Below, in pieces: positions 16,371-57,500 of a stretch of DNA of 64,000 nt. The DNA lies in NCBI GenBank assembly GCA_026419785.1, contig JAODTK010005634.1, forward strand, positions 682,001 through 746,000. The letters run 5' to 3'. Below the pieces are notes generated by a model. That model saw nothing but the letters and a program-made list of their open reading frames with translations. It was not told the origin of the DNA and made no database searches. The position numbers and the translations under genes are program-made. The DNA is from Sclerodactyla briareus (lineage: Eukaryota; Echinodermata; Holothuroidea; Dendrochirotida; Sclerodactylidae). Each line of letters begins with the position of its first letter. The stretch's first letter is position 1.

Positions 16371-17160
16371 TCCCCGAACACTGTAAGTGTTCGGGGTATT
16401 TATGGTTTTGGCCGTGTTATCTGTGCCGCCGTCTCCGCCGCGACGGCCCGACGCCGCGCCGCCGGAAACTTTATGCGTTATAGCGCTCATCATCTTTAAC
16501 ACTTTATCGATTTGACCCTAAAACTTGGTACACATTCCGTAAGTAGAGGAAAATCTCGGATAAGTTCGAAAGTGGGGCTATATCGTATATTGTTTGCCCT
16601 CTATTTTGCAGGTTTTTCGCAAAATTTTTCAAGTTTGTGCGATTTACACGAAACGGGTTGTTGTGGGTAGTTGTTGGAGCCGATAAACATGGTTGACATT
16701 TCAAGGTCATCCGGAGTCAAGTTTGCATTTTATTTGGCCAGTAGCCTAATTATAGCAGAATGTACGTGATATTTCAAACTTCATGGATTTCATGAAACTG
16801 GTGATAGGGCCAACTATCAGTGCGATGAATTTCCTAATGGGGCCAGGTCACCAAGGTCATCTGCTGACGAATTTGCCTAATAGTTGGCCCAATTTAGCAA
16901 TAAAGGCAAATTTAGAAACTTCGTGTGATTCTCACGAAACTTGGTGAGTAGGACCTTCTAAAAAACAGTCCCGATAAAGTTATTCAATGGTTCATTGAAA
17001 TCACGGAAATGTCATATGGTGTTGGGTTTTTAATTTACATATTCGTTAGCATAATTGATAATTAATGCAATATTTTCTCAAACTTTTAGGGATTTTGACG
17101 AAACATTGTGAATAGGACCTCACTACCAGTCCTGATAAATCATCAATCGCATCAAGAATC
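16371..17160 (+). mobile_element. Helitron-like family H, copy 1 (5' end and internal units)
   Basis: The copy starts A|TCCCC at 16371 with a perfect hairpin: stem CCCCGAACACT, loop GTA, stem AGTGTTCGGGG. It is followed by tttatggttttgg and a GCC-rich leader. The next section (tttaacactttatcgatttgaccctaaaacttgg..., ccctctattttgcagg) aligns with the same section of the copies ending at 43893 and 50067 (minus) and with 54219. Internal units with tcacgaaacttggtgagtaggacc and AAGGTCA follow. No 3' CTAG end was found; the copy passes into the tandem array. There are no protein domains, so it is non-autonomous. Confidence 0.6.
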
Positions 17161-17229
17161 CAATGAGGGTAAAATTTGTGGGATAATTTGCAATTAGTTT
17201 GTCTGCTCAGTCAAAATGATGAGTTTAAG

Positions 17230-18898
17230 ACTTTTTCGCAATAACATTGGACATGTTCATTGGGAAGGCCAATATGCCTAGGAGTGGATGCATCACATGG
17301 AGTGTAATGTAACAATTTTTATAAAATCCGCATGTCATTAAAGGTCATTAAAGGTCAATTAGGGGGTCAAAAAATATTTTAGTACTTTTTCGGCAATAGC
17401 ACTGGGTGGTTCATCAGTGGAATGCAAAATGCTCCCAGGAGTGGATGTATCACATGGAGAGTAACAATTGCTCATAAAAACTGTCAAATTCATTAAAGGT
17501 CATTCGGGGTCACTAAGGGTCAAAAAAAAAAACTGTGTTTTGGCTAAATCGGAGAATGAATATCTGCACGGCGGGGATGCTCACCATGTGTGATATTAAT
17601 TGTGACCTCAGTGTGGACCTTCTGACCTGAATTTGACCCTATGTCGGGTGTTCATGTGGTTAAAGGTTCGAATTCTGAATTAATGTGCTTATTTACGGAG
17701 TTACGGGCAAAAAAAGTAGCAACTGGTTAATTTTGGATACGTGATAGAACTTTGTGTGCTTTATGGAGGGGAACAACGCCCGCTTCGATCAGACACTTTA
17801 CTTTGGTAGTTACAAGGGAGTCAAAGTTCAACATTTTATACTTTTTCGCAATAACATTGGACATGTTCATGGAATGCAATATGCTTCTAGGAGTGGATGC
17901 ATCACATGGAGTGAACAATTTTCATAAAACCGCCATGTCCATTGACGGTTCATTAAAAGGTCACTTAGGGGTCAAAAACTGTTTTCTGTCCTTTTTTCCG
18001 GCAATTAGCATGGGTGTGTCATCAGAATGCAAATGATCCTAGGAGTGGATGTATCACATGAGAGTACCAATTCTCATAAAACCCTGTCATATCATGAAAG
18101 GTCATTTGGGGTTCACTTCGGGGTCAAAAAAAAACTTTGTTTGGCTATTAATCGGAGAAATTTGAATATCTGCCAAGGCTGGATGGTTCACCATTGTGAT
18201 ATAATTGTTGACCTGCATGTGGTGACCTCTGACCTGAATTTGGACTCTGTCGGGTGGTATGGGGTGAAGGCGATTTGAATAAAGGTGCTTATTTAAGGAG
18301 TTACGGGCAAAAAAAAAAAGAACTGGTTTTAATTTTTGGATATGTGATTGAGCTTTAGATCGTGCTTTATGGAGAGAAACAACTCCCGCGTCGATCGGAC
18401 ACTTACTTTGGTAGTTACAAGGGGTAAAAGTTCAATTTTATACCTTTTTCGCAATAACATTGGAATGTTCATTGGAATGCAATATGCTTCTAGGAGTGGA
18501 GGCTTCCCACATGGAGTGTAACAATTTCATAGAAACTGCCATGTCATGGAGGTCATAAAGGTCACTTAGGGGTCAAAAACTGATGTTAGTACTTTTCGGC
18601 AACTAGCACGGGGTGTGTTCATCAGAATGCAAAATGCTCCTAGGAGGGGATCTATCACATGGAGTGAGTCACAATTTTATTAACAAACTGCCATATCATT
18701 ACAGGTCATTCGAGGTCACTTAGGGAGTCAAAAAACTGTTTTTGCTATAATCGGAAGAATTGAATATCTGCGAAGGCCTGGATGGTTCACCAGTGTGAGA
18801 TAATTGTTTACCTGCATGGGTGTGACCTCTGACCTGATTTGACCTCTGTCGGGTGGCCATGTGGTTAACGGTGGCAATCTTGACTAAATGTGCTAATT
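17230..18898 (+). repeat. Tandem array, about 605-bp unit, 2.7 copies
   Basis: Marker ctttttcgcaataacattgg starts at 17231, 17841 and 18444; marker gttacgggcaaaaaaa is at 17700 and 18300. Each unit also contains an internal duplication about 150-158 bp apart, marked by aggagtggatg(c/t)atcacatgg at 17280/17438, 17889/18041 and 18492/18642. Units carry many AGGTCA half-sites (for example AAAGGTCATTAAAGGTCA). The third unit stops at about 18898. Differences between units are mostly small indels. Short open frames inside are not credible genes. Confidence 0.85.
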
Positions 18899-18899
18899 A

Positions 18900-21190
18900 G
18901 GGACGCCCCTTGTCGGGGCTGTAGGGGTGCCTCATTTACAGTACCAAGGGCATTATGGAAGGACCCAATTTACCAGTACACGTTGTCGCTTCACAAGTTA
19001 TAAAGGTCTTCTTTCCACGAATCCATTGTCCGGTTCATGTTCACCAAATGTCTGGAATAAGAGATGCGGGGGTATATATACGTCTGGAGGTTTACCCGAC
19101 GACATTTTTAGTTTTGAGTGAAGTCTGGGGGTTTCGGATGCTACTCTATGAAGCACTGCAGACTCGTCAATGAAGTAATAGAGGGGGGTACCTAAATACT
19201 ACGTGAGGTCACCTAGCAAAGGCAGCTAGGCTTGCCCATGCCTATTGGTTTGGTGTACTGGGATGAGGGAGAAAAGGAAAAATGAAAGAAAGAGACATGA
19301 GGAACCCGTCTTTAATTGTCCAACATTCGCGGTTACTCGGGTGCAGGGTTTCAATATATAAACAATCTAGGGAAAGCATTGGTAGCAGCACTATGAACTG
19401 TCTGGCCTGATGAAGAGTGGATATTTTTCATGTTCATAAACTAAGTGTGGATGATGGACAATGAAAAGTAAAGTTAAAGGCTTCATTGAAATCATTGACA
19501 GACTTTATGACAGGGGCTCAATTGATTTACCGGAAATGTTCTATGAATTATTGACAGGGCTTTGGTTATTATGACAGTGATTCACTGTTTCATAATATGT
19601 TGAGATTAGTTGTATCCCAGAACTGATACAAACTGGACACACACTTCACAACAGACAATCTCAACCTACCAAGCTGTGTCTCCTCTATACAACTCCTCTA
19701 ATAAATGGACCACATGCCACCGGCAATTATCAACTTAAGGTCACCCACCATCCCATACTGTGTCTTATCTCCCCCACTGCTGGTTTACCATGTTCAGCAC
19801 ACACTCCCTCCCCTCCTCAGGTCCCCCCCCCCCCGACTGAGCTGGAAAACAGAGGGCGTATTGAATTATGCGTAAATAGGCAGGACAATTGGAATCCTCC
19901 CTCTCAAAAACATCAGCTGAATCACGAAAACATTTATCATGATCTGGGAGGCCACTATAACATTCCAACTAAATAAAGGATGGACATGCAGAGACAAATG
20001 GGAAGATAATATTAAAAAAACAGGGGGAGGCCATTATGATCCCTGAGACAAAGAGAGAGAGAGGGAGCTGCGAAAACCTGACAAACAGACCCTATCTATC
20101 AACAATGATTACCAAAATCAAAATATTAGGATTCATCTAATGTAACAGGGAGCGAAGAGTGCAGAGAGGAGCTCTGCAATAACTCCTTGTTAAAAGTTTT
20201 TTTTTTTTTGTTTTTTTGGTGGGGGCCGCTACCCAATCTTTGCTGCATGATGGTGTCAGGTTTCAGAGGGGAAGGTTGTGGATGGAGCTGAAGGTTGTGG
20301 CCCGGGAAGGGAGGGGAAAAGAGCAGGGGCAGAGAAGCTACCAAGGAGGGTTCACTGGTAAGATATAAGAGGCCCATTTAAATATGGCCACTTGCTGTAG
20401 CCCAATTCATATACAAAAGGCACTTAGCAAACGATTGAATGTTTCAGGGATAACCAGTCAAATTTTCACCTCACCCGTGACCCCTCACATGATTAAACCC
20501 CCCCCCCATGTAACTGGACGGAGCCCCTGTTTTACTGGGACGGGAGAGGGGGTGTCTCAAGAAAAAAATCGGGCAGAGGGGGTGGGCTATTGGTAAAAAT
20601 TTCCGTGGAATATCGAAACTCAACCTACATATTAACTATCTTTTCACTGAGAGCTAAATTCCCTGTGACTGGACAATCCTCCCCAGGCAAAACCGGCCTG
20701 GACAATTACCCCTCAGAATTCAAAGCTATGTATAGGGTCTGGAAGGGAACAGGATACGTTTGAGGGGGTAGTTAAACGGATGTTGATTTTAGTGTTGAAG
20801 TAATCTAGAACGACTGGTTGGACAACCATACTGCATTTTCTAAAATCCCCATGCCACAATTCCCAGTCCCCCCCTCTCTGAAAATGTATAACCGAAATAT
20901 CAGTCAGTTACCTAGTTTGTAAATAGTTGACTCACCGGCTCCTCCGCGTGCTTTTAATATGAACGCACGAACCACTGACTAGAATCCCAACATTCACATC
21001 CTCAGGACTCTCAATACCATGCATGTCTACCACCCTTTGTGGAAATGTGACGAAATTGAAATTCTACTGAAATTTATGAGAGTTGGACACATTATTTGAC
21101 CTTCAGTGACCCATTCTCTAAATTCAATATCTTAGGACCCTTGGGTGGGCAAATCCACTTATTTTGCACAACCTCTGCAGCAAGACATCA
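18900..21190. other. No supported feature
   Basis: A short GC hairpin (GCCCC ttgt CGGGGC) lies at about 18905, just after the array. T-runs and C-runs occur near 20198, 19827 and 20500. No coding block is recognised. Confidence 0.3.
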
Positions 21191-21191
21191 A

Positions 21192-21192
<1 letters not shown>

Positions 21193-21227
<35 letters not shown>
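21193..21227. repeat. Poly-dG tract of 35 bases
   Basis: Thirty-five uninterrupted G between atcaac and caagaaac. It is the longest homopolymer in the window. The true length may differ because such runs are hard to sequence. Confidence 0.85.
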
Positions 21228-21229
<2 letters not shown>

Positions 21230-23221
21230 AGAAACTGTAGTAATGATTAGTATGGTGTTGAGGATGGAAGGCAATTTGCTCAGTTTTGTGTCAGTAGTTT
21301 CTGTAATTTTTGCAGGAGTTGAGAAAGAATGGTTCTATGATAGTTAAACATGTCGGACTGTCCCAAGTGTCCCACTCACCTTCATCCTATCATTATCATA
21401 TCATTTACTCCAGCCGTGTACAGGCTATTACATATTTATTTATAATACTTTCTACCAGGAGTAAACGTTTTCTGTCAAGGTTATTAACCTCAGTGTACAT
21501 ATGCATCTAGGTCATGGAAGGATCCTCCTTTATACAAGGTATGTAACTCTCCGGAACCCCTCCCCCGCGCCTACACCATGAATTAGATTGTTTGGTTTCC
21601 AGAACGGCTGACTCGCACCAGGACCGTCAACCAAGGAGCCCCCCACCGAGTGAAGCTACCGATACCGCGGCCAACCCTCCAGGCTGACAAACAATACACG
21701 CAGGCATCCTTATAGCTTATTAGGGGATATCAAACAAAGAGACCAGTCAGCCCCCGCCGCGACACAGCTTCGCATAAACATTGCGAAAAACCTGATTGAT
21801 CGAAACAAATTGCGTTTGAACATTTGGATTACTGTTGTATCAAAGCAATGCATGACTCCCTTCTGTTCCCTGTAACAGGCCTAGGCCTCACAGGATACCT
21901 CCCCGGGTGTGACCTAAGCAATGTGTGCAACTCAACAAAAACAGAAAGCACTGTGGTTTGTGGAATGCATAAACTCGTAAAATCAATACATATAGGAGAA
22001 TATATTATATTACTACCATCTCAGCAATATTGTCATCTCAGCAGTATTTTTCAACAAAGCACAGCAATAATTGTCCAATGATATTTCACATTCTGTTGAC
22101 ATACATACTGGAGTGACAGAACCACAAGCAATTTGTACAAGGACCTGAATAACATTTACCCAAAAATTTTTTACTTTGGGAGTTAGAATTCCGCTTGGTG
22201 CCATTGCAATGCCGTTGCTGTTTCGATTGACACCACAACAAATATTGCTTGTACACGATACGACCAACACAATCATGTTGGCAATGCCTCATAGACTAGT
22301 ATTCCTTATTCTGGTTGGAAGTGTCTTAACTATTATGTAATCATTGCAGAACAAAAGGTCAACGCATTCAATTCAATGAACGTGAGAGCAAAATCCTGGT
22401 ACAAGCTTTCCATTCTGCTCTTGACAAGGAATGAAGTCTGAGAAATTTTATGAAGAGTGCGCTTGTCCGCTACCCTACTATAGGGCTGGTCAAGTGGGGT
22501 TGCCAGTGGCACCTCTGTTTTGTTTTATTTTTTTCCCGCAGATTAGGAGCTGGAACTAGGCATATGTGTACGGTAATGACGACTGCAGTGAATTATATAA
22601 GGACAGTGATATCCTCATATTAAACAATCAAAGCCTGTTTCCTCAATTCCAGTAAGGGATGTTCCAGGCCATCGGGGGTTTATAAAAACCCAAAAAGAGT
22701 TGGCCCTTGTTTGCCTCTTCACCAAAATATAGTGATACTCACATAGTCTAGGACATTCATAGTCATGCCTCCCCCCCCCCATCAGACACTAGTCCTCCCC
22801 ACACCCCCCTCCCTCCCTCCCTCCACCCAAATGACATTCCATATATCAATCATTGAGTGGGGGGAGGGGGCAAGGAACTCACTCCAAGCCACCCCTTAAG
22901 GCGTTCAATCACACTGTCACGATATCGATTAAATTAATCGCTTACGCACAAATCCCCATTGCGCAGGTCCACATCAACTGAGCGATAAAATGGGGGCTGA
23001 TCTGCTGCATAAACTACACTGAAGTTGACTGAACGATGAAACTTTTGAACCATCATGAATTTTAACGTGATGTCAAAGCCTATCCAGCTCCCAGTTACTC
23101 ATACCTGCCATTGTGCTTCTACAGAATGACCGGGGCTTCGCTGCGATTAATCAAATTGTCAACCGTGCCACCAACCTGACATGAGGACGTCACTGCTGTA
23201 CGAACTGCCCTCCGCAACCCC
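21228..23221. other. No supported feature
   Basis: No exon or dispersed repeat was recognised. A (CCCT)n-like pyrimidine patch lies at about 22770-22830, and a region near 22905 (aatcacactgtcacgatatcg) is loosely like the MITE end at 45940. Confidence 0.3.
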
Positions 23222-23521
23222 CTAAAACAAAAAAAAAAAACAAGAAAAAAAAAAAAAAAAAAAAAAGAAACACAAAAAAAAGACAAGAAAAAAAGAAAAA
23301 AAAAAAAAACACAATAAAAAAAGAAAAATGAAAGAAAAAAAAAGAAAAAAAAAAAAAAAAACAAAAGGGTAAAGGGGGGGGGGGAAGGGGGGGAAGGAGG
23401 GGGGGGGGAAGGGAGAATACCCCCGCCACCCACAGGACGGGGGGGGGGGGGGCCGTGGCGCGGGGGGGGGGGGGGGGCCGCCCCCCCCCCGGGGGGCCCG
23501 GGGCCCCCCACCCACCCCCCA
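23222..23521. repeat. Extended homopolymer block (A-runs, then G-runs, then C/G blocks)
   Basis: About 145 bases almost only A with scattered C and G, then about 110 bases mostly G, then alternating C-runs and G-runs. The open frames of 79-141 codons across it are strings of Phe and Pro and are not genes. It looks like unresolved low-quality sequence or a collapsed homopurine tract. Confidence 0.8.
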
Positions 23522-24242
23522 GGTCCTACATACCTGGTAAACACACCTAATGTGTAGAGCTGACTGTTTGGCGTGTCCCCTCAATAGTAAAGGAAGAACC
23601 CAGACACCTGTTCACAGTCACCCTGGTGCTGATGGCTACTGCATGAGATTTGACACGGCCCAAATCTATTAAGACGCAAGCCTGTCTGAGGAGGGCAAGA
23701 ATGATCACACTCCGTGGTACTCCATTTGTCATAATACCACGAAACGGGTTTTGATAGGCCTGCTGTGATGTCCATGCTCTTAAATAGCTGCAAGCTATGG
23801 CTGGGTGTGAGAACATCGATAGTCTAATTACCAACACTCAGGCCCATCCAACACAGAATTGCTTCTCATATGGATAAAATTAGCTCAGGTATTCCCCTGG
23901 ATTTACCGATTTGCTGAGACGGGAGTGGGATTGAAACACCCACCCCCGCACTCTCTCCCCCTCAAGATTATTGTATGCCAGTACAAAGGCGATATAGACC
24001 TGCTGTACAGCGACGTCTCTGTTGCATGCGCTCCCCTAGCGGTTTCAAGAGCGTCACAATATACCGAACAAATCCCCCACCCCGCCCCACTCTTCCGGAG
24101 TGAAGATGATGTATGGGGTGATGCCCACTTGCCCGTATCAAAATTTCACAACACCACCACTTTCCAAGGGCCCTACACCATATTTTCTTTCCCCCCCAAA
24201 AAACATAATTCTTTTGTTGCGTTCGATCCTCTCTCCCCCCAA
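23522..24242. other. No supported feature
   Basis: Unique-looking sequence between the homopolymer block and the minisatellite. The long frames covering 23859-24630 owe their length to the minisatellite. Confidence 0.3.
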
Positions 24243-24612
24243 ATGCCAGCACCTCCCCCCAATTCCACGAGCGGGGGCTCCCCCCATGCCAAGCACTATG
24301 TTGGTACCCCTCCCCACCATGCCAACACCTGGTTGTACCTCCCCCATGCAGCACCTGGTTGTACCCCTCACCCCATGCCTCACCTGTCTGCACTCCTCCC
24401 CCCCATGCCAGCACCGGGTTGCACTCCTCCCGCCCCATGCCAGCACTAGTTTCATCCCTCCCCCCATGCCAGCACCTATTGCACCCCTCTCTCATCCCAG
24501 CACCTGGTTGCCCACCCCTCCCCCCATCCAGCACTGGTTGCAACCCCTCCCTCCATGCCAGCACCTGGTTGCACCCCTATCCCCATGCAGCACCTGGTTG
24601 CACCCCTTTGGG
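24243..24612 (+). repeat. Minisatellite, unit about 31 bp, roughly 12 copies
   Basis: The unit is close to ccccatgccagcacctgg followed by ttgcacccctcc. Copies range from about 28 to 34 bp and differ by substitutions and C-run length. The array ends at tttgggctg. It produces long frames on both strands (up to 198 codons) because stop codons are rare in the unit; these are not genes. Confidence 0.8.
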
Positions 24613-25095
24613 CTGTATTGGATAAATTAGCGAGAGCATCATCAGCTCATTTCACCCGCTTTTCAACAACTATTGCAAAGTCCAACTACCCTTGATATGA
24701 GTCATCAAATCTCATATGACATGTTAAGTTTTTTCCTCCCCCTTCCCCTATTTTACAGAAATGATGGCCTCACATCCACGTCACGGTTTCATTCATAGCT
24801 CCACATTGACACATGATTTAAGAAGCTACTTTCGTTTAGAGCAATACGCCTGAACATGCCTTTGATGCTTGTCTGTTTAACGGATTGTGTGCAATTCAAA
24901 ACCACACTGGTTGAGTTCACTGCAACTTTTGAAGGCGTCATGGACAAATTGAAGTAAGGCCAATACCGCCAATGGAGCTTGACTCCCATGAATCTAAACT
25001 AGATTACAACTATAGCCCACACGGTGACCATGCTATGTTCATTTGATTTTGCAGTACCATGTAGAGTATATTTCTCTGCCAATGCAAGTATCAAC

Positions 25096-26168
25096 TAGTG
25101 TTCAACGATTATCGGTATCGGAAAATCGGCCCGATTATGGCTAATCGGAATAGATCGGAATCGGTAAATTACTCACCTAGTTCCGATCACAGATACGCTT
25201 ACCCATAACACCTGGGCATCAGAAATTTCAACATTTCCGCTCAAAATTGGAACACATGTACGTACACACATTTGGGCACCCCCTCCCCCTCCAACCCCCT
25301 TCCCCGATGAATAAAACTCACAAAACGATCGGTTCATTCCCGTAACATAACTAGGTTAGATGCTGCATCGCGTTATACACTGCACATATGACCTGAGACC
25401 ACTCAAGCTACGAAAGGCATGATGCTACCACATAACCATGCCTCGATTTGGCATTTTAACGAAGCAAGACACGGCCTGGAATTTGATTGGATTGTGCTAA
25501 AATTCATGCGAAAAAAACTAATAATTATCATCGGTGCCCCCAGTGGGGAAATTGAGGAATAAACCATTCATTCATGCATGAGTAAAGTAGGTCTACGCGA
25601 GTAACAGGCCACAGCAACATTTTAGGAATCGGCGACCGCTACAGCTCTGAGTGGTCGTGCTTAACCACAGGGCCAATGGAAAACCCCCCATAGACGTAAG
25701 TTGTGGTGGGAGATGATAGAACGTTTAATGGTACCGCACTACATTGGTACAACATACACATTGTGTTTGTGTACGGTGTATGCCACAAAAAGTATTTTCA
25801 GGCTTCTCGTCAGCTGGCCGCACGTATCGACTTTCGATATTTCACAAGAGTATCGGAGCTTCGAAATCCATTTCGAAAAGCGCATATATTATTTGTGTTC
25901 CGTCACCGGGAACCAAACAGATGCAGGCAATAAAAAAGCTGATCGAGAGGTATTGACTTGAAAATAAAGCTGAATTATGACTACCCCTGTAGGCCTATTG
26001 ATTGGATTTAACTCAGGGAAGGTGCCTTACGTAAGCAATGCATGTGAACGGTGTACTGTTGCTGACTTGAATAATCGGTTATCGGTATCGCGAATCGGAC
26101 AACGATTATGGAAAAAAATAATCGGTAATTCGGTAACATCCGGACATTGACATAATGTTTGAACACTA
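25096..26168. mobile_element. hAT-like non-autonomous DNA transposon
   Basis: The ends are TAGTGTTCAA at 25096 and its inverse TTGAACACTA ending at 26168, ten bases perfect, extended imperfectly around ATTAT. Both sub-terminal regions are crowded with ATCGG or CGATTA motifs (25104-25170 and 26071-26140). hAT elements often have short TIRs and such sub-terminal motif clusters. No transposase frame is present in the 1.07-kb interior. I could not find a matching 8-bp target duplication, so the superfamily is inferred from end sequence and motif layout. Confidence 0.6.
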
Positions 26169-38779: not shown

Positions 38780-39400
38780 TAATCAGTGACCAATTTCAAA
38801 TTCATAAGGACTGATGATTAACCACGTCTACCAAGGAAGTTAAAGTTTTGCGGAAAAATGAACATTTGCATGAATGAAGCAAATTATACACACTGAAATA
38901 AGGTAGACCATATTCACTAAGTTTCAGGAAATCTGACAAACTTTGAAATTTTGCATAAATCATACGAATTAGAGGATTTAATTAGCATATTTATGCAGTT
39001 CATCTACCTAATATCCTGATCCAATGTGCCAACTGAATCAACACAGCATCTACTGTATATCCGTAATCTTGCTAGTGAACCTAAACAATAAATTACATGA
39101 AATAGGCTAATTATTCCACTCAATCAGTGACTAAATTCATATCCAAAATCCAATCATACTGTGTTTACTCAACCGAATACTACATACAATTTCATCAAAA
39201 TTCTTTCCCGCTACCAGAAGGAATCCTGGCCTAACAAAAAAATAAAACCAGAAAGGGCCACCCACCCCCAAGTGATTACTAAGTCTCTTTCTGAACTTGG
39301 ATCAGGCAGGACAAAAATTGCAATCTACCTAAAAAATCCTTCCATATCAAATGCCGCATCCATACACAACCACAAGCGACAGACGCTCAGTCAAAACTTT
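38780..39400 (+). repeat. Family C dispersed repeat
   Basis: The start (aatcagtgaccaa...aggactgat...gtctaccaa) matches 3935-4020. The end (atccaaaatccaatcatactgtgtttactc) matches 5860-5920 and 58665-58720. The interior has A+T-rich units with ttgcataaat and caaattaggc-type phrases, as at 58200-58480. It has no clear terminal repeats and no coding capacity. Confidence 0.5.
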
Positions 39401-43143: not shown

Positions 43144-43893
43144 CTAGACATGTGCAGGCGGGTAAACCACCGCTGGTATTTCCCTCACAAATGGCCTTCG
43201 TGGACCTCTGTAGAAGGAAGCACATTAAATTTTCATGTCTATTTGACCTCTGGTGACTTTGAAATGCCCTACCTGTTGTTCAGGACAAAATGTCCAAATT
43301 TCGCTCAATCTGACAGAGTTAGAAAAATCACAAATAAAATGCAAAATTTGACCTCTGGTGACTTTGAAATGCCCTACCTGTTGTTCAGGACAAAATGTCC
43401 AAATTTCGCTCAATCTGACAGAGTTAGAAAAATCACAAATAAAATGCAAAATTTGACCTCTGGTGACCTTGAAATTACTGTCATGTGTTTTTTGGAACCA
43501 ACTTTTGTTCCCACTCACCAAGTTTCATGTAAATTGGACTAACTCTGCATTCTCACCGAAAACCCATGCAAATTTTTACCTCCGATGACCTTGAAATCAA
43601 TGTCATGATTTTGGGACCATTGTTTATCCCACCCACCAAGTAAATCTGACTAACTCTGATTTTCGTGTAAAACCAAACCTGCAAAATAGAAGGCAACAGA
43701 CATGCAGCGATGCCCACTTTCGCACTCATCCGAGGACGGTCATGTGTCCCAAGTTTCAGATTGATCAGATAAAGCGTTAAAGAGTTATGGCGCAACGCCT
43801 TTAAGTTTCCGATTGGCGGCGGCGGTGACAGTGCGGCGAAGATGGCAGCTACACCCGTAAATCCATAAAATCCACTTAAAAGTGTTGCGGGGA
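43144..43893 (-). mobile_element. Helitron-like family H, copy 2 (both ends present)
   Basis: On the minus strand the copy begins A|TCCCCGCAACACTT at 43893 and ends ...GCACATGTCTAG|T at 43144. After the decayed 5' hairpin come ttatgg, a GCC-rich leader, the conserved section ending in tctattttgcagg, and then TGACCT-rich units. Near the 3' end a short hairpin (GCGG/CCGC) sits upstream of CTAG. There is no target duplication, as expected of Helitrons. It contains an exact 105-bp duplication. There is no Rep/helicase coding. Confidence 0.62.
43241..43450. repeat. Exact 105-bp tandem duplication inside family H copy 2
   Basis: atttgacctctggtgac... starts at 43241 and 43346, and a third partial unit starts at 43451. 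By eye the two full units are identical over 105 bp, while the third is diverged. Since 105 is divisible by three, both strands stay open (130 and 98 codons), but this is an effect of the repeat. Confidence 0.85.
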
Positions 43894-44535
43894 TATGATA
43901 ACGTGAACTCTAGTTGACTCTTGTTAGAAGCTTTTCACTTCTTATAACAGATAACACTAAAGCTACAATTAATAAATATGTTAATTTTGAGATCATGGTT
44001 CCTCTACCAACCATGAAAGTTAACGTTGCTTGCACAATCAACCTTTACTCCTTTTGCTAAATTGCGGCAAACCAAGAAAAATCAATGCCTACGAACAATC
44101 ATTTCACCAGATTATTTATTATTGATGAATTAATTATAAAGAGCATAATATTGACCTAACTGGTATCTTATATTTATCCTGTGTCAATTTTGAACTTCAA
44201 TACGTCAGTTTTTTAGAACGTTTCAGGATTTACCAAAACTTGATCAAGTCTGTCCTGCGCCGTCCACAATATGTGTTAATACTTTAACGTACCAACAGAG
44301 ATAACCAGGGCAATGGACAGGGCTCCGATGGTGACTCTCGAAATCTCTTCAAAGATTCACCTGAAGATTAGTGCATAGGAACCATGTGGTAGACCTAAAA
44401 CTGTCAAAGATTTGTTCAGGGTCATCAAGGTTAGAAAACAGTCAAACTACTGGACATCGTTGTATCAAAAATTTTAATTGGGTAAAAATGCTTAAGGTAT
44501 TAATGTTGATACATCCAACTGGACTTAGTATATGG

Positions 44536-45539
44536 CAGGGGAGGCGCCAGGATTTTCCTGACAAAGGGACAGAGTTCAATTTCCCCGATGAAAGTTCAGC
44601 AGTATCGTTCGCCATAGTCCACCTCACCCTACCCTATACAACAAAACTTATATCCCCACTTCGGGGATATTATGGTTTTGGCTTCGTTGTCTCCGCCGCA
44701 TCCGTATCAGCGTCCACATCTGCCGCAATTCTTGTTAGCACAATTACTTCTCCAACACTTTGTCCGTTTGAGCCGAAACTTAGTAGGTGTGGACGATGTT
44801 CGTTCCCGAAAAAAGTGTAATGGGGACATTTTCAGGGTCATCAGAGGTCAAAGTCACGTAATTTACCCGATTTGTGCATTTTTCGCAGTTGGTTGATTTC
44901 ACAAAACTTAGTAGGTGGGGACTATAATTGGTCCTGAAAAAAGTGAAGGTCATTTCAAGGTCACCAGAGGTCAAATTAGCTATCATGCGAAAGTTTGTCA
45001 GATTTCAACGGAACTTCGTAGGTGTGAACGATGTTTGGTCCAGAAAAAAGTGGAGGACATTCCAGGGTCATCAGAGGTCAAAGTCACGCTTACTTGCCCA
45101 GTTGCACATTTTTCGAAAGTTGGTCTGATTTCCACGGAACTGGGTAGCTGGGGACTATAAGTGGTCAAAGAAGTGAAGGTTATTTCAAGGTCACCAGAGG
45201 TAAATTATGCGATATCAAAAGTTTGTTAAATTTCAACGAAACTTGGTAGGTGACCACTTGTAAAGGTGTTAAAGCGCTTTGAGACTTGTGAAAATTGCAC
45301 TATATAAAAGCTAGTCATTATCATTATTATTCAATAATGCCATCCACTTAGCAAACTATATAACAATCTTCACCAACTGATTGCGAGGTGGGGATAATAC
45401 ACATTGGCGGTTTTACCCGCCAGCCATGTGTCTAGTTTTTCATGTTTCCATGGCAAAAAACCGCTTTCCCGCCGGAGGCGTGTGGGGGAATTCCCTTCCC
45501 CCCCGAATTCCCCCCCCCCCCCTGCTGGCGCCGCCCCTG
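44536..45539. mobile_element. hAT MITE with perfect 8-bp target duplication
   Basis: The left TIR is CAGGGGAGGCGCCAG at 44536 and the right TIR is the inverse of CAGGGGCGGCGCCAG ending at 45539, 14 of 15 bases matching. The flanks are GTATATGG at 44528-44535 and GTATATGG at 45540-45547, an exact 8-bp duplication, the size made by hAT transposases. About 117 bp on the left and 200 bp on the right belong to the MITE; the centre is a family H copy. There is no transposase. Confidence 0.85.
44653..45335 (+). mobile_element. Helitron-like family H, copy 3, nested in the hAT MITE, with an atypical tail
   Basis: It starts A|TCCCC with a short CCCC/GGGG hairpin, then atattatggttttggc and a GCC-rich leader. 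Four units alternate A-B-A-B: A has catcagaggtcaaagtcac, B has caccagaggtcaaa. The 3' end is not the usual GCACATGTCTAG. Instead it has ttaaagcgctttgagac...ctatataaaag and (ATT)n, a tail common on LINEs and SINEs. Either a LINE/SINE tail lies next to the copy or the tail was captured. Confidence 0.55.
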
Positions 45540-45547
45540 GTATATGG

Positions 45548-49463: not shown

Positions 49464-49473
49464 GACAAATTAA

Positions 49474-50067
49474 CTAGACATGTGCAGGCGTACCCCGAAG
49501 ATGGTTTATCATGGCAGAAGAAAACAGCCTGTGGACCTTCATTGAGAGGAATCACATTTGACCTCCAGTGACTTTGAAATGCCTACCTGTAGTCCACATT
49601 CCCCCGAGTTTTGATTAAATATGACAAATTTAGAAGAATCGCATGAATCATGCATTGAACTGGGACCTTCTGTGACATCAAAAGACATTCATGTGTTCAG
49701 GACTGACAATAGTCCACATTCACCAAGTTTTGTCCAATCCGAGAGTTAGAAAAATCATGAAAAAAAAACACAATTTGACCTCCAGTTGCCCCCTTTCGGG
49801 ACCAACTTTTGTCCCCACCCACCAGTTTTTGGATGGATGAACTCATTAATTTTTGTGTGAAACCCACAAAATAGAGGGCAGCAACATGCAGTGATGCCCA
49901 CTTTCGAACTCACCCGAGATTTCACTAGAGCAGACATGTGTACGAGTTTTCAGTCAATCGGATAAAGCATTGAAGAATTATTGCGCTAACACCTAAGTTC
50001 GGGCGGCGGCGGCAGAGACGGCAGCTACATCCCCAAAACCATAACATCCCGAACACTGTTGTTGGGA
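49474..50067 (-). mobile_element. Helitron-like family H, copy 4 (both ends present)
   Basis: On the minus strand it begins A|TCCC at 50067 with an imperfect hairpin containing AACACTGTTCGGGA-like arms, then gttatggttttgg and a GCC-rich leader. It ends GCACATGTCTAG|T at 49474. The 594-bp body follows copy 2 throughout, lacking its 105-bp duplication. Flanks show no target duplication. Confidence 0.62.
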
Positions 50068-50720
50068 TATAATAATAAACATTGTTTCCAGCTTGGTCAA
50101 CATCGGTCAAGAAACAAACATTTGAGAGCCCAAAATGGAAACGTTTACAGATGGGCGGACAGCCAGACAGATAGATAGGCTCAACCAGCAGAGATGGTTC
50201 AGGCTTAAGGATATTAGGCTTGCTCACTTTAGGGTGGCAACACCGATTGTGCCCGCTGGTAGATGATGGCATATGCATGGAGTTCATATAACAGAGTGAG
50301 CGACAGGTACATACAGGGAGGGCCACAATTTACAGTTTGTTGGGACCAGTACGCACCATGCAGGCAACACACCTGGTATCGGCTGGGGAGACCAAAGAGG
50401 CTGTGGGATCTGAACTTGGCTGACCTCATCCATTCAGTGGAAGAATGTTTAAACATACTGTACCATTTGGCAGGCAGGGGTTCAGGTTGTCCATGAACAG
50501 ACTGCCGTTCTAATCTTATCAAAACATGTGTAAATGTATACAAGTAGCATATTTTACAATGCATCCTGTTATGATTTGGTAGGGGTGGCATGAATCAGTT
50601 ACAAACCACATGATGGGGAAAGGGGATGTCTCTCCCCATACAAGAGTGGTTGGCAAAATTTAGTATAACATTGTAGGTCTACAGAATGCCCAACAGTTTG
50701 AACAAAATGACTGAATTCCC
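50068..50720. other. No supported feature
   Basis: Open frames of 77-133 codons overlap on both strands around 50230-50590, but none has recognised motifs. Possible unique host sequence. Confidence 0.3.
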
Positions 50721-51600
50721 TGTTACAGGACCTTTGACCTCAAATTCAGGGAATTGTATAATTGGCTAGGAAAAATACTGACCAACTTTCATGATCATCT
50801 ATTCTGTAGGAGCAAAAAGGGCTGACTGACAAATGCCAAGATTGACCGCAATTTCATTAACACAAGTATCCTAGTAATGCATTGGTTCATGATAATACTG
50901 ACTAACATTCATGATCATATGATCTGTTTCTGTAGGAGTAGAAGCCGCTTGACCATTCAAACAAGATTGTCAAAATCGACCCCCGAATGACCATTGACCT
51001 CAATATGTACCATTTTTCATATTTTTTTTATGGTAAACTTGCCGAGCGAAGGATCGATCCTATTCAAGGCCCTGCAAGGGTGCAGACCTGATACTGCACC
51101 TAATTGTCAGCTTCACCAGGTACACGGAATAAGGTCAATGAATACTGGCCAATCATCATGATCATCTATTTCAATCTGTGGGGGAAGCATTTTGTCCACA
51201 GAATCCTCAAAATGAATATTTTAGAAATTACCTTCGTGGATCTCATTCAGAGGAAGCACAGGAAGCACAGTATAAAGGTCCATTCGACCTCAAAAATACC
51301 CCAACCCCCTGTTAAAGCAATTTATAAGCGATTTTTTGCACTTACCTTTTACCACAACCTGCAGTATGCCACATACAGCTAGATAGATCTGATTGGCAAG
51401 ATGGTAGGCCCTGAGGTGGCCACCTTTCCCATTCCAAATTATGCCTGCCAAACTCCACAAGCTACTAGATCATAAGAATCTGAATTGACCTACCTGTTAT
51501 TCAGGACCAACTATAGTCCACATTCTCGAAAGTTTTGATGAAGTACAACAAATCGAAAAACCGCATAATTTATGCAAAATTGACCACCTGTGAAATTTTC
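50720..51600. repeat. Mosaic of family D tandem units and a family H fragment
   Basis: Units with actgaccaactttcatgatcat, ctgtaggagtagaag and gaccattgacctcaa occur near 50775, 50910 and 51150, about 130-240 bp apart. At 51230-51300 the phrase accttcgtggatctcattcagaggaagcaca matches the 3' part of family H copies 2 and 5, and 51481-51600 matches H units (ggaccaactatagtccacattctcg). The same D units recur at 57560 and 58910. Confidence 0.5.
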
Positions 51601-52325
51601 TGAAGGCGCTATATGTAAACATACCTCTTTGGAAGCCGCTGTCACAGCTTGGTGCGGAATCTTATCAGAAGTCAAACTGGAAGAAAAAAAAACGTTGGAA
51701 ATAAGGGAGGCATAGTCAAGTACGTTGTTATGTAGAGGCAATTGCGTCGTAGATTTCGACTCAACTTCTGGTAATGCTACTCACTACATTATAGCTTGGA
51801 CCCCAGGATCAGGACCAAATTTCATTGGATCCCAGTGGTCGATAAGGCACAAATCGGCGGGGGTTGTAAAATTAGCCTTGTGACATCATGGGGGGGGGGG
51901 GTTAATCAGAAATGAAGCAAACATCATCCACCAAGTTTGTTGTTTGTGTGTTGGTTGCTAGTTTTGGCGGCCGCGGCAGCGGAGGCCCCCGTCCAGTGTC
52001 GCAAGGATATAAGTTACAGCATGGGAGTGGATACACTACTAAGAACTGTTTTTAACACCTGGCATTGGATATGGGTAATCATGGCTAGTGTGGCCTGCGA
52101 CTGCAGTATACAGTATACCACTTCAAGCACTCTTATTGGCCTAGTGCCACAACAGATTGAACAGAGATACAATTGAACATGTTCCACCAGGCGTGTAAAC
52201 TTCTGGCCCAAAGAAAAACTGAATTGAGCTCCAACACCCTGAGCTCTAAGAAAACCATGTGGCGATTCATCTGAAGAAATTAGTGGAAATAGTGCCAATT
52301 ATAACCAGAAAGCCAAAAGGCTTAG
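51601..52325. other. No supported feature
   Basis: No coding block or known repeat. A 10-base G-run lies at 51891. Confidence 0.3.
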
Positions 52326-53355
52326 TGATTCCTTGACTCTTCCCTGACAATCTATAGCTAGACACGAGACAAAATGGAAGATTGCACCAGTTCATTATGG
52401 GCAACATAACAACTGACAAAATTTCCTGTTTATCCCAACAACCAATAGGGTTTCCTACTCTTGATAAGAAAGCTACCAACTGATTTTGAGACGTTCAGAC
52501 TTTGACCTATAGCGCGACTCAGATGGACCTTGACCTGACCCCAAAACAATAGGGTTCATGTACTCATCATGGGGAAACAACATACACAAATATGAGCTTC
52601 ATCCATCCAGGCAGGGGCGTTATCGTGTTACAAGCCCCAAATTGACCAAAAAATTGACTTCTCACAAATTTCTATTTTTGACCAATATTTTGTTTGCACC
52701 CGACCTATACAAAACAATAGGGTTCCTGTACTCCCCATAAGAAAGCTACCACACCAAATTTCAACCTGTTGAGGACCGACCAACCATTCTGATGGGACTC
52801 ATCTGTTTACAAAGGTTTACCAGACTTTGACCTCTGGGACCTCAGATGACCTCTGACCTGACCGAAAACAATAGGGTTTCATGTTATCACATGGGGAAAT
52901 TTTTTTCTCCTACCAAGGATGAGGCTCATCTGTCCAGGTGGGGTTGACAGTTATCGTGTTTACAAGCCAAATTTAGCCAAATTATTGACTTTTCACAAAA
53001 TTTTCTATTTTGACAAAATTCACCCCCGACCCCCAAACCGAAAACAATAGGGTTACAGTACTACCATAAGAAAGACTACACAACCAAATTTCAACCTGAT
53101 TCAGACCAACCATTCTGGACTATCGTTGGTACACGGTTTTCAGACTTTGACCTCTGGTGCTCAGATGACCTCTGACCTGACCCCAAAACAATAGGGTTCA
53201 TGTACTCATCATGGGGAACACACATACCAAGTATGAGCAGACCTACTCAGACAGATCAAAGAAGTTATCGTGTTACAAAGGGGCGTTCACACACACACAA
53301 CCCACACCACACCACAACGACCTGACTGCAGATTCTCTGACTTCGTCAAGAATCA
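52326..53355 (+). mobile_element. Family B element, copy 3 (both ends)
   Basis: Left TIR TGATTCCTTGAC at 52326, preceded by the shared agccaaaaggcttag; right end GTCAAGAATCA at 53355, one base shorter than the perfect inverse. Three core units start near 52497, 52820 and 53140, each with TGACCT half-sites and the acaatagggtt / tcatggggaa / tatgagc markers. Length is 1030 bp, close to copy 1 (1014 bp). There is no coding capacity. Confidence 0.68.
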
Positions 53356-54218
53356 AAAACATTTTATTTTATACTCATATATTGCATGAAACATGAAGTC
53401 CAAAGAAAATGTTCAAAAGAAGGGATATATCGCCTGGGAGAATCTGGGCTAGAGAAAGGGTTGATAGATAAAAAATGCATTTCTGTGCCAACCATCCATA
53501 CCCACAAAGTGTCAACACCAATTTTGCACCCCGAAAAATAGACAGCCAATGGTTGGAAACAGCCAAATTATTATCGGTCACCATGACAGAAGTCGATAAT
53601 TTCCGTGCTCACCATATAATGTCACATGACCACATGACATCTCCGCCCTCCCCCGATGGACTCTGCTAATTGATCCGGGATGCACAAGAACGCAGGCAGA
53701 TGCCAGCAGATAGGCTCGTCAAACGTTAAGCAGACAGCACAGACGCATGAAGAGCCTATCAGCCCCTAATTATGCATGACTGCGGTGCGGCCAGCAGCCT
53801 TATCAAAGTGCAAGCTGTCATGCAGTCTGGGTTTGCACACAATCACCAATGATTGAATGTTAACATTGAGGTGACAACACTGAGAGTATAGGTGGTAAGG
53901 GGGCGGGTGATCGGTGTTTGATTTCACAGACCGTTCTCTTCCTCTGATTGTATTTTGACTCATCGAGGGCCTTCTAATGATCGGGTATATGAAAAACATG
54001 AATGAGGACCATTGACGAGGAGTTCAAAGTCGAAGGCTACATTCAGATCAACAGCGTGTAGAGGCAACTGTCAATGATTTAAAGACACCCCTTAATACCT
54101 CAGATATGGTCATGCATTGTCAAAATAGCATGCGCACCAAGTGGGTCATTTTTGGATCCAAAGCGACTCCGATGGCATGAAACCCTGACAATAAAGAACT
54201 CTGGGGTGTGTCATTATA
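53356..54218. other. No supported feature
   Basis: No recognised coding or repeat. Confidence 0.3.
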
Positions 54219-54769
54219 TCCCTGCAACACTTCCAAGTGTTCGGAGATATTATGGTGCGGGGGCTGTGTCCCTCGCGGCGTCACAGGTCTCCTCTGCGGT
54301 GTCTCGCCGCCCCGCCCTTCCCGCCATGTCCGCCGCCCACTGGGCGTGTCAGTGCAATAACTTTAAACGCTCACCCGATTGATTTGGGGGCAACTTCATA
54401 CACATTTCTGCGCTGTAAAATATTCAAATGGTGTGAAAGGGGGCATTAGTGCATGCTGCTGCCCTCAATTGCAGGTTACACGAAAATACAGAATAGTCTG
54501 ATACAGAAAAACTTGGTGGACGGGGGACAAACGTTGAGTCCTGAAGAATGTCAGGTAACCAGAGTTCAATCTTTGCGTTTTGTCTTTGCGACTTTGTCAT
54601 GTTCAAACGAAATCAGAGAATGTGGATACAGTGGTCTGTAGGTAGGTCATTTTGAAGTCACCCAAGGTCAAATAGACATGATTTGATATGCTTTTTGTTA
54701 AAATGGGTACAAAGGTAATTTCTGCGTGGATATACACGGTCTCCAGTTCACCCAGCCGGCACATGTTAG
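54219..54769 (+). mobile_element. Helitron-like family H, copy 5 (both ends, decayed 3')
   Basis: It starts A|TCCCTGCAACACTT and the hairpin partner AAGTGTTCGGAGA at 54219, then tattatgg and a GCC-rich leader. The section ending in gccctcaattgcagg matches the other copies. It ends GGCACATGTTAG|T at 54769, equal to GCACATGTCTAG with one base lost. A late AAGGTCA remains at about 54663. Confidence 0.55.
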
Positions 54770-56553
54770 TTTACTCCTCGACAAATGGCTGGATACATAG
54801 ATCACCATGAACAGGTTGGGGGAAAGTGGTAAACAGGTTGCATAACAAGTTTAACAATAAAGGAAGGACAAAAAGGAGGGATCGAACATGGGTAAAACTA
54901 AGACAAACGTTCTAATGCCAGAATCAGATATAGAATAGTGGAAACAGTTAAAGAACAGTGGCGGAATCATCACTGAAACTGAACTTCAGTCAGCTTTCTC
55001 TCTTTCCGCCCAGGATTAGAAACCAGACAATGAAAGTATACAAGCCCCAGTCCTCAGTAAATGAAAAAAAACAATTTGGGAAAAACACACTTTTCATGGT
55101 TTTTGGAGGTTTGCTTTGGGTTCTTCGGGAGGAGAATGAGGTGGCTAGTTGGTGGTGTGGTAGAATCTCACATGGGAATGAGACACATTGCTAAATACGC
55201 AGGCCATTTTAAACTACACAGATAGAAGAATATGGTACGTGACTACCCTCATGTTTAACACCCCTACCATCCCTCAGAGGGTAAAGGCCCCAAACCATTC
55301 AATCCAGTGCCATATTACCTCTTCTAATTTGGAGGGTACTCCTCTAAAGAAGATATATTGATACATCATCCAGAAATGATCCACATTAACTTTCTGCAAG
55401 GCCCTATCAGCGACATGCCTACTGAAACCCTTGTGTGTACACACGTCATGAAAAGGGCAGGCCATTGAGAATAACAGGAAGCTTGTGACTGGCTCCATAC
55501 GGATGGTGGCATAATAAAACTGAGCAACAGTCAAAGGTTTCGTATTCATGGGAACATGTCCTCCTGAAATGTAACTCCCCTGACAACAGACTAGAGAGGT
55601 TCACCGGGAGAGCGGATGCCTGGTGCTGGTTCACGCAGGTGACATCCAAGGCAATTTCCCCGAAAACATCAAAGTGAAAACATTATGGGGCGGAATTTAT
55701 GGAACATGAGTCATGCGAGGGTTCTGTAATGTGTTTCGCATCTGTGGCATGTTACATAAATAAACAATTCCAGGTATGCTATTGTAGTCATCATAGAGTT
55801 GTGTTTGGAGATATGAATAAAATAATTTGGTATTTAGGGCTCGGCTAAAGACCACCAAGTGGGTCGCCAATCATCCATTTTGTTGAAAACTGTGTACAAA
55901 GACATGGGGAGAGAAGATAGATGGTACACGACAAAGATTTTGCAAGAAACACTATGACGTCAGTGGGACATACCGAATACCAGAAGGATGCAGCCCTCTA
56001 CCCACTGCCTCCCAGGATATCCTGTCCCCTTTCCTAGCTGGCCTCAAGCTGATGTGTGCAATCCGCATGTGATCAACTAACCGAAGGTCAAGAATGGTCT
56101 ACTTATATCTATATATTACCCAAAAAAACTTGCTAGAGAAATTGTTGGTATACATTCAAGAAATATTCTCCAATCGGTAGAATGAAAGAAGGTTAAAGTT
56201 AATAAATTCAGCAAATGACACTCAGAAGTAAGTCATGGATTGACAAGATAAAGGGAGAACACACATAAGAATCAATTTGTTTTTCTACAATGACCCACAT
56301 TTGGTATCAGGGCTGCCTCATGCAATTGACAAGTGCATGTAGTGAAACACAACTTTGTCTTGAATGGTTCTTGTACTAACAATTTGTGAAGAATATTACT
56401 TTGTTGGCTATGATATAATCTAGTACAGAAATTGAAGGATTGTAGAGCCTTCAAGGGAAGTTAACATTATTTTTAGATAATGATTCAAGACAACTATAAC
56501 AAGAAGCAAGAGGCACAGCAGCTCATCCATCAATTTGCAGCAGTCAGGACATA
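54770..56553. other. No supported feature
   Basis: Frames of 91 codons or less; none recognised. Confidence 0.3.
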
Positions 56554-57500
56554 CTAGACATGGCACGGTGGTTTTAAAATTTCCATGTATATATCTCGTA
56601 AACATACCTTCGTGGACTTGTTTAGAGAAAGCACATTGAATTATGTTCCAAGTGAATTCGGTGACTTGGGAAATGAACCTACCGTATTCATTTGCCTAAG
56701 GCCCATCTCCCGTAAGCGCCCACCCAACTTTTTGGAGAACTCTTGTAAATCAATATGTACGGCTGAAAGGCCTGAAAAATATTTTGTTTGCTGCCAGGCA
56801 GAACACAGCACTATTGCTGATTCCTTGCAGTGCATAAAGCCATACACCATACACGAAACGTGTAATAAAAACCGAATCCCTCCGCGATAACGATGTTGTG
56901 GCTGTGACGCGTTGCGACCTATACGGTACTCAATTCCATGAATGAATGGAGTGATCCAACAATTCTTGCTATCCAGGCCGTGTCTCGCTTCAGTATACAT
57001 GCGATCGAGGCAATGGTTAGGTGACATGCAGTATGTGTCCGTTCGCCTGTATTACCATAGCCCAAACGTAGTTTGAGGGAGTATAATGTATAGCGCAGAT
57101 GCTAGCCTATGCCCTTGTTATGTTACAGTGAATGAACAATCGTTCGTGAGTTTTATTCATCGGGAAGGGCAGGTGGGGAGGGGGAGGAAACATGCTTAGG
57201 AATAGCAAGGCAGTGTTTGCTTCAACCGGTCAAGTTTGAAGGGTTTATACTTGTACACAGGTGTCAGTCCCGCGAAAATACACCCAGAACGCTGTAAAGT
57301 TATACTCTCATACGCCACATTCTGAAACTTTGCAAGCGCGGGGGCGCTTTAGGCGGAATGGAATACGGTACTGTTCTTCAGAACCCAACTGTAGTCCACA
57401 TTCTTCAAGTTTGTATTAATTTGACAAAGTTAGGAAAAATCACACAAAGTTGTGACAATTTGAACCTCCGTGACCTTGAAAGACCTTCACAAAAATACCA
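56554..57500 (-). mobile_element. Helitron-like family H, copy 6, split by a mariner-like MITE
   Basis: The 3' end (plus strand A|CTAGACATGGCACGGTGG) is at 56554, followed by accttcgtggacttgtttagagaaagcac as in copies 2 and 4. The family sequence stops at 56681 and resumes at 57369 with ctgttcttcagaaccc...tagtccacattcttcaag. Removing the MITE gives a junction matching copy 2 (cctacctgttgttcaggac). The 5' end was not identified; family D-like units follow. Confidence 0.6.
56682..57368. mobile_element. Tc1/mariner-like MITE with TA target duplication
   Basis: The ends are CCGTATTC at 56682 and GAATACGG ending at 57368, flanked by TA on both sides. The TIR continues imperfectly with a gcctaa and gcgccc section (left cctaaggcccatctcccgtaagcgccc; right inverse cctaaagcgccccc). 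It is 687 bp long and lacks a transposase. The TACCGTATT start is a widespread MITE type in marine animals. Confidence 0.7.

Follow-up and report, generated by a model that had tools for sequence, protein, structure and literature searches.

Identity of the repeat

The 64,000-nt stretch of the Sclerodactyla briareus genome analysed here (the window) carries several copies of a GGTCA-bearing repeat led by a hairpin. Are these copies canonical Helitrons, as was originally predicted from the sequence, or transposons of another kind? The evidence below argues strongly that the family consists of non-autonomous rolling-circle elements of the Helentron/Helitron2 type (HINEs). The family's class is ordinary, and its ends and target vary modestly.

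Extent and ends of the family

Pattern searches across the 319 Mb genome recovered a repeat family with constant ends. The strict 5'-end pattern had 760 matches and the strict 3'-end pattern 286, against none for either reversed control; the family is thus not a product of chance. Its copy number is rough. Since the strict patterns recovered few of the ends that profiles detect when loci are fetched by their opposite end (1 of 18 for the 5' pattern, 2 of 27 for the 3' pattern), the family probably numbers in the thousands. Two array units were sought with a 42-base pattern, which had no genome matches at three or fewer mismatches, so arrays like that of copy L055 are uncounted.

Full copies are delimited by 5'-TTATATCCCC(GC/ACTT) and CTAG-3'. 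The 5' terminus, TTATATCCCC, lies 4-5 bases outside the A|TCCC boundary given originally, which therefore cuts through the terminal repeat. In end profiles, the signal drops to background beyond (TNA)TTATATCCC (54 distinct 5' ends) and beyond CTAG|TT (74 distinct 3' ends), where the fetching patterns themselves impose ATATCCC at one end and, in loci fetched via the strict 3' pattern, the first T after CTAG. The profile of 54 ends replaced a first version that mixed both strands of the palindromic hairpin. By these profiles CTAG is a true terminus, as proposed, and TC is not.

Both ends are sharply defined and were found together in 30 full copies, two of 32 candidates (L006 and L044) having been dropped for want of a recognisable 5' start. 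Full-copy length is 393-920 nt in 29 of the 30; the thirtieth (L054) measured 1299 nt, and a closer 3' end gives 645. The predicted GGTCA motif occurs in every full copy, at 3.6 per copy versus 1.4 in shuffles, and its reverse complement averages 0.33 per copy.

Copies in the window

The five 5' ends originally proposed all match the profile of 30 copies (3 of them window copies), with starts corrected to 16367, 44648, 54214, 43898 and 50072 (Table 1). The proposed 3' ends at 43144, 49474 and 54769 match the end profile as well, and the last is indeed one base short, the C of CTAG having been lost. The remaining one, at 56554, is degenerate: the 62-nt end profile misses it, and it was detected, at E 1.4e-7, by a profile built from 22 full copies located outside the window. 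A further 3' end at 45435, overlooked earlier, closes the copy starting at 44648. A search for the 3' end of the copy at 16367 found none; related internal repeats extend downstream of this copy to about 18735. No recognisable 5' end was seen in the degenerate copy. Internal tandem units of the DINE/HINE kind were borne out.

Table 1. Family copies and fragments in the window
Feature	Positions	Strand	Details
Complete copy, 755 nt	43144..43898	-	5' TCATATCCCCGC, 3' CTGCACATGTCTAG; empty site located elsewhere in the genome
GGTCA-bearing internal tandem units of the 755-nt copy	43241..43475	-	Period 105, 2.2 near-identical units, 99% matches
Complete copy, 599 nt	49474..50072	-	5' TTATATCCCAAC, 3' CTGCACATGTCTAG; joined flanks searched, no empty site among the matches listed
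Complete copy, 556 nt	54214..54769	+	5' TTATATCCCTGC, 3' CACATGTTAG, CTAG minus its C
Complete copy, 788 nt, short-hairpin (A-type) subfamily	44648..45435	+	TTATATCCCCACTTCGGGGATATTATGG; 3' end CCCGCCAGCCATGTGTCTAG; internal tandem units of about 230 nt, 2.1 copies
5' part of copy	16367..17116	+	Start TTAATCCCCGAACAC, 5' hairpin present
Degenerate copy	56554..57487	-	3' end ...GTGCCATGTCTAG at 56684-56554; internal units 57487-57371
Internal family fragments	51223..51593	-	51593-51479 and 51317-51223; full-copy profile
Internal family fragment	58284..58483	-	Full-copy profile
Internal family fragment	11314..11469	-	Full-copy profile
Weak internal fragment	38914..38975	-	Full-copy profile, E 6e-5

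A search of both window strands against Rfam gave no match at the gathering threshold, so no curated ribozyme or RNA family explains the hairpin. Of five window ORFs compared with Pfam at E 0.01, none had a match.

Terminal repeats and two subfamilies

The 5' terminal repeat folds into a hairpin with the stem ATATCCCCG...CGGGGATAT. An inverted copy of the 5' terminal sequence (the pair TATATCCCCGC / GCGGGGATATA) lies subterminally on the 3' side alone, directly upstream of a second hairpin and about 34 nt short of the end. This 3' hairpin, GGCGG-TTTAC-CCGCC, is followed by TGCACATGTCTAG and finishes 13 nt before the end; its GGCGG/CCGCC stem folds in four of the six copies folded, being shorter in L079 and absent in L022. 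In published descriptions, a 5' hairpin with an asymmetric inverted 3' copy marks Helitron2/Helentron, and Helitron1 is without it (PMC3627910; PMC4067079). The 5' hairpin, which the original prediction called unusual together with the GCC-rich leader, is therefore what this class should have.

The family has two subfamilies, whose difference at one copy of the terminal repeat is mirrored at the other. A 5' CCCCG is matched by a 3' CGGGG in 18 copies and a 5' CCCCA by a 3' TGGGG in eight, against mixed repeats in four and two copies (Fisher p 0.0015); this count sets aside 22 of 58 copies without a readable letter and four with other letters. For 57 of 58 end pairs (one was dropped), the energy of the copies' own 5'/3' duplexes was equalled or exceeded by 5 of 5000 partner permutations. 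The score of A-type 5' ends is -12.0 when they are paired with A-type 3' ends and -7.8 with the rest, where G-type stands for every non-A-type copy (48 versus 9 A-type). Within types, own pairing was no better than permuted (2413 of 5000). The co-change lies wholly between the two subfamilies and may therefore rest on very few events. The C that is bulged in the 5' hairpin is paired in the terminal-repeat duplex. Covariation within the 5' hairpin is modest. Double changes number 11, where shuffles average 5.3 and 15 of 2000 get as high; for the percentage paired, 80 of 2000 do so. These figures come from 68 distinct hairpins of the 100 listed, with the short-loop subfamily and a few more left aside.

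Search for an autonomous partner

The original prediction had called for a Rep/helicase-bearing element that shares the family's ends. Searches with Helitron_like_N, PIF1 and Rep fragments, combined with end profiles, found no such autonomous element. Helitron_like_N (PF14214) had three genome matches at two places, PIF1 (PF05970) had one, and the Rep-fragment protein search led to two places, with no family end found by profile in 18 kb around each. A loose pattern had a single 5' match near a Rep place, at C2926:124716, that looks like chance. The sole Rep fragments found read RGSPHAH and *GSPHIH. Their GSPH is the Helentron signature printed by Thomas et al., who give an S between G and P in Rep as the mark of Helentrons (PMC4067079).

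Empty sites and competing explanations

Paralogous empty sites were recovered for at least six of 26 completely joined copies, including the window copy 43898-43144; this is a minimum, with 40 candidates scored in each search, of 511, 94 and 101. The set left out L090, L091, most of the L094 5' flank and the window copy at 54214 (L001). The absence of target duplication, already claimed, holds at all six sites, save for an indistinguishable T or TT, and the target reads approximately TNRTT. The flanks sum exactly to the empty sequence in four of the six; L015 deviates by one base from the favoured boundary, and L064 can be fitted only by assuming that two bases were lost at the copy start. With the element start taken as TT, the junction is A|T at two sites, G|T at two, T|T at one and ambiguous at one. 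T-rich/TT insertion without duplication is expected of a HINE, and the T/TT ambiguity recurs in printed HINE cases.

Could the family still belong to the canonical (Helitron1) type, as a non-autonomous Helitron that starts with TC, ends with CTRR and inserts at A|T? The CTAG end and its GC hairpin do provide the Helitron1 arrangement of a 3' CTRR preceded, about 11 nt upstream, by a hairpin, and with a TT start, A or G stands left of the junction and T follows in four of six empty sites; these traits are also Helitron1-like. However, the terminus is TTATATCCC, with TC internal, and the 5' hairpin and inverted terminal repeat found here are both given as absent from Helitron1 (PMC3627910). The Rep fragments are likewise of the Helentron type in print (PMC4067079). 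We therefore regard a canonical Helitron as improbable: the dispersed, non-autonomous rolling-circle element with CTAG ends, a member of the Helitron superfamily, stands, with a 5' end of TT(ATATCCCC) instead of TC. Still less probable is that the seeming Helitron features are really the palindromic ends of a cut-and-paste DNA transposon, such as a MITE. Inverted terminal sequence does exist, and a TT duplication would be indistinguishable from element-borne Ts in some sites, but the inverted copy is one-sided, duplication goes no further than that ambiguity at any of the six empty sites, and two of three copies with a 3' flank starting TC keep their 5' TT (L079 and L090). A third idea, that the family is a dispersed satellite or a SINE-like repeat lacking its own transposition ends, draws on the internal tandem units, the GGTCA enrichment and the fact that no coding capacity was seen; it is scarcely credible given sharp ends co-occurring in 30 full copies, the empty sites and no poly-A tail at any of the 30 full-copy 3' ends displayed.

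Relation to known elements

Transposons of the Helentron kind are already known and occur widely among invertebrates, with the 5' hairpin as a hallmark. The present family has the hairpin-forming 5' repeat, the inverted 3' copy and the duplication-free TT insertion of Helentron/Helitron2 elements. With HINEs/DINE-1, as described by Thomas et al. (2014; PMC4067079), it shares a 5' palindrome, a 3' stem-loop, internal tandem repeats, an unmodified T-rich/TT target, a variable number of terminal Ts, and subterminal inverted repeats (11-15 bp), set in by a few bases at the 5' end and by tens of bases at the 3' end. The 3' repeat lies about 34 nt from the end here versus 38-60 in mite HINE families, and the CTAG end is given there for the Phytophthora proto-Helentron (5' TT, 3' CTAG, A|T insertion), not for HINEs. 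Helitron2 (Bao and Jurka, 2013; PMC3627910) likewise has a 5' terminal repeat that makes the 5' hairpin, a 3' copy adjoining the 3' hairpin on its upstream side, a 5' T and mostly no duplication; the target in Chlamydomonas is TTTT|T/C, compared with approximately TNRTT here. FoHeli1/2 of Fusarium oxysporum (PMC5148889) are similar in having asymmetric terminal repeats, a hairpin at each end and insertion after TNAT, followed by T (figure legend) or A (text). Unlike the present family, they start with TCAG, end with ATTTT, are about 5-6 kb, code for protein and are fungal. Cg_HINE of Crassostrea gigas (PMC7492417) also has HINE ends around satellite-like tandem units, a TT target without duplication and empty sites recovered via joined flanks. 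It has Cg170-type units and GTCY-like microsatellites, whereas the family here has GGTCA-bearing units of 105 or 230 nt (two window copies) and a GCC-rich leader.

How would such elements move? By extension from established models for such elements, the nick at one end would be made by a Helentron Rep/helicase provided in trans, and one strand would be peeled off via rolling-circle replication, with the 3' hairpin and CTAG as the putative stop signal. The 5' terminal repeat may pair with its inverted 3' copy in competition with the 5' hairpin and so set the end of replication, as Bao and Jurka (2013; PMC3627910) proposed. Finally, the single strand would be inserted at a target that contains TT. 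The GGTCA tandem units are putative passengers, with no demonstrated role in movement.

Significance

A bolder reading, possible but on balance doubtful, sees in the family a link that has survived between proto-Helentrons and HINEs, in its subfamilies a record of one switch in two ways and in TNAT an ancestral target. Such a link would join proto-Helentrons, with 5' TT, 3' CTAG and an A|T site, to HINEs, with hairpin-bearing terminal repeats and a TT site. Under the switch, the 5' terminus would alternate between its own hairpin and pairing with the subterminal 3' copy, and the bases dispensable for the hairpin (the bulged C, or the ACTT loop) would stay complementary to the 3' copy in each subfamily. 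TNAT, printed for a Fusarium Helitron2 too, would on this view be a target rule that the clade inherited from its ancestor, in fungi and animals alike.

The class and boundaries of an abundant repeat are corrected here, and empty sites are supplied. Recognition of the 5' end in Helentron transposition is only hypothesised in the publications cited here, and two subfamilies with co-changed terminal repeats offer a natural experiment on it. If the TNAT target proves general, it would help to annotate the ends of Helitron2/Helentron elements, which lack the simple TC...CTRR rule.

The repeat is a new family of an already known kind of transposon. The original prediction of a canonical Helitron holds for its rolling-circle nature and fails for its type, since canonical Helitrons are described as lacking a 5' hairpin (PMC3627910) and start with TC, whereas this family has such a hairpin and starts with TTATATCCC.

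Ends of the Element

Across 54 distinct 5' ends with orientation fixed, conservation extends out to TTATATCCC; thus A|TCCC, previously taken as the 5' boundary, lies within the terminal repeat. Weaker conservation reaches a T three bases farther out (reading inward: T 0.76, a position without G, A 0.80, T 0.81 and T 0.94, followed by ATATCCC). TNATT makes up the five bases ending at the second T in 21 of 30 full copies. The 3' flank is at background past CTAG|TT (74 distinct 3' ends); it began with TT in 26, TC in three and GA in one of the 30 full copies, nine of which came from loci fetched by a pattern imposing the first T after CTAG.

Empty Sites and Target

Flanks of full copies (70 + 70 bases) were joined and searched against the genome, and 40 candidates were scored in each search. 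Among these, junction-spanning paralogues were found for 6 of 26 complete joins: 3/10 in one search (copies L015, L016, and L043), 2/9 in another (L064 and the window copy 43898-43144) and 1/7 in a third (L080). With an element of TTATATCCC...CTAG, the empty site was the exact sum of the flanks in L016, L043 (judged against the commonest paralogue form), L080 and the window copy (judged against paralogue L129), with junctions A|TT or G|TT. The window copy aligned as GTTCACGTTA[TCATATCCCC...CTAG]TTGGTATTTGC against the empty GTTCACGTTATTGGTATTTGC in L129; locus L128 has ATGG where L129 has TTGG. L064 best fits CAT|TCC, assuming a loss of two bases from the beginning of its copy; the L015 junction is off by one base. 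A duplication longer than TT was required in none of the six aligned empty sites. In these sites one or two terminal Ts cannot be assigned to element or target, an ambiguity likewise reported for HINEs, the non-autonomous Helentrons, by Thomas et al. (PMC4067079). The unoccupied junction carried TNRTT in five of six sites (L016 excepted; 3/5 paralogues in L015), which suggests that TNRTT is preferred as a target and is not the element end alone, six sites being few. The elements L030 and L043, inserted at the same junction, match in both flanks and apparently represent an old local duplication that carried the insertion.

Hairpins and Terminal Repeats

DNA folding parameters were applied to six individual copies. 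In the G-type subfamily (5' ends such as TTATATCCCCGCAACACTGTAAGTGTTCGGGGATAT), the 5' hairpin spans up to 9 + 6 bp and leaves a single C bulged, with -9.9 to -14.0 kcal/mol in four copies; in the A-type subfamily (TTATATCCCCACTTCGGGGATAT) it has 8 bp (-6.7 kcal/mol, two copies). A second pairing partner of the 5' terminus is GCGGGGATATA or AAGTGGGGATATA, located ~34 nt before the 3' end. This duplex, at -11.7 to -15.2 kcal/mol, includes the bulged C and the A-type loop ACTT, both unpaired in the hairpin. A 3' GGCGG/CCGCC stem was predicted in four of the six copies; it was shorter in L079 and absent on folding of L022.

Among 58 two-ended copies, the 5' and 3' letters paired as G with C in 18, A with T in 8, G/T in 4 and A/C in 2, excluding 4 copies that carry different letters and 22 in which no letter could be read. 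Mean duplex energy with the own partner was -9.76 vs. -9.11 permuted, a value reached by 5 of 5000 permutations (57 copies). A-type 5' ends scored -11.97 with A-type 3' ends vs. -7.78 with all others; for G-type 5' ends the scores were -9.34 with 3' ends of their own type and -8.66 with A-type ones. Within type there was no own-partner effect (2413/5000 permutations). The matching is thus a co-change between subfamilies, which may have involved few events. Within the 5' hairpin, covariation is modest.

Occurrence in the Genome

In the 319 Mb genome, where the window occupies bases 682001-746000 of contig C2877, the strict patterns ATATCCCN{4,30}GGGATATTATGG (5' end) and CYTGCACATGTCTAGT (3' end) matched 760 and 286 times; both reversed-pattern controls matched 0 times. 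Within the window, six copies and several fragments were recovered by a profile built from 22 full copies outside it. The predicted 3' ends were confirmed, as were the five 5' ends within a few bases. Median pairwise identity of the 22 copies (~0.72 over aligned columns) suggests that most are old. Internal GGTCA units occur in 30/30 full copies (3.6 per copy vs. 1.4 in shuffles). Oyster HINEs carry satellite-like tandem units inside in the same way (PMC7492417).

Features of the family and of neighboring sequence
Feature	Location	Strand	Observation
Complete copy	window 43898-43144	minus	empty site in L129
Copy	window 44648-45435		3' end missed by the original prediction
Predicted 3' ends	window 43144, 49474, 54769, 56554		positions confirmed
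Shared repeat	window 25282-25480 and ~56972-57187		~82% over 104 bases, 81% over 54; second lies within degenerate copy 56554-57487
Tandem array	window 24278-24607		~29/60-bp units (CTCCCCCCATGCAGCACCTGGTTGCACCC); no family-profile match
L030 and L043 elements	G000:C219, ~107-113 kb		~5 kb apart; flanks match at 73-81% identity
L055 array	G000:C385:15086-18101, 6-1687		~70 degenerate head-to-tail copies, 22-23 bp unit (TATAGTTACCCGCCTGCACATG)
L040 termini	G000:C77:57417-60432, ~1390-1516		two tandem 3' termini ~100 bp apart, joined CTAG|TTTAATGTGCTTCC
Loose-pattern 5' match	C2926:124716		chance-like; the one match near the Rep places
NS1-like frame (L074)	G000:C2926:121131 onward		~6 kb from Helentron-like Rep fragment

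The L055 unit resembles the element's last ~20 bases plus TT, and the array is perhaps a small satellite grown from a transposon 3' end. The L040 arrangement would fit a duplication of the 3' end right at the terminus itself. The nine paralogues L107-L115 show a HINE-like 3' end (resembling CCCGCCAGGCGATGTSTAG), then a similar TTTATGGTTGACTTTAGTC... stretch and, if the sequence extends that far, a (TG)-rich run; this is perhaps read-through beyond the 3' end. The L043 element is located at this junction.

Autonomous Partner

Hardly any Rep/helicase is detectable in the genome: PF14214 matched three times at two places and PF05970 once. The Rep fragments read RIEFQQRGSPHAHI and RVEFQQ*GSPHIHML, and Pfam confirms both pieces at the C2413 place. 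An S between G and P marks Helentrons, with L in Helitrons (Thomas et al., PMC4067079); a Helentron lineage therefore seems to have been present once. By profile, no family ends were found within the 18 kb examined near either Rep place, so the link to Helentrons is one of structure and not of an autonomous copy with shared ends. The open frame in L074 resembles a parvovirus NS1-type helicase by eye.

Proposed Mechanism and Relatives

The family has fixed ends, a target context, no duplication beyond T/TT, both hairpins, and terminal repeats with subfamily-specific pairing potential. A Helentron Rep-helicase may have moved it in trans through a single-strand intermediate, for which the 3' hairpin and CTAG would be the termination point. 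The end of replication would be marked by the 5' hairpin switching to a terminal-repeat duplex, as Bao and Jurka propose (PMC3627910). The GGTCA units have no shown role in movement.

The printed proto-Helentron has the same TT...CTAG ends (PMC4067079). The preferred target is near that of Fusarium FoHeli1/2 of the Helitron2 group, printed as insertion after TNAT, with legend and text differing on the next base (PMC5148889). Three points are of modest interest: this family joins TT...CTAG ends to full HINE hairpins, it shares the TNAT context with a fungal Helitron2, and its two subfamilies have co-changed terminal repeats.
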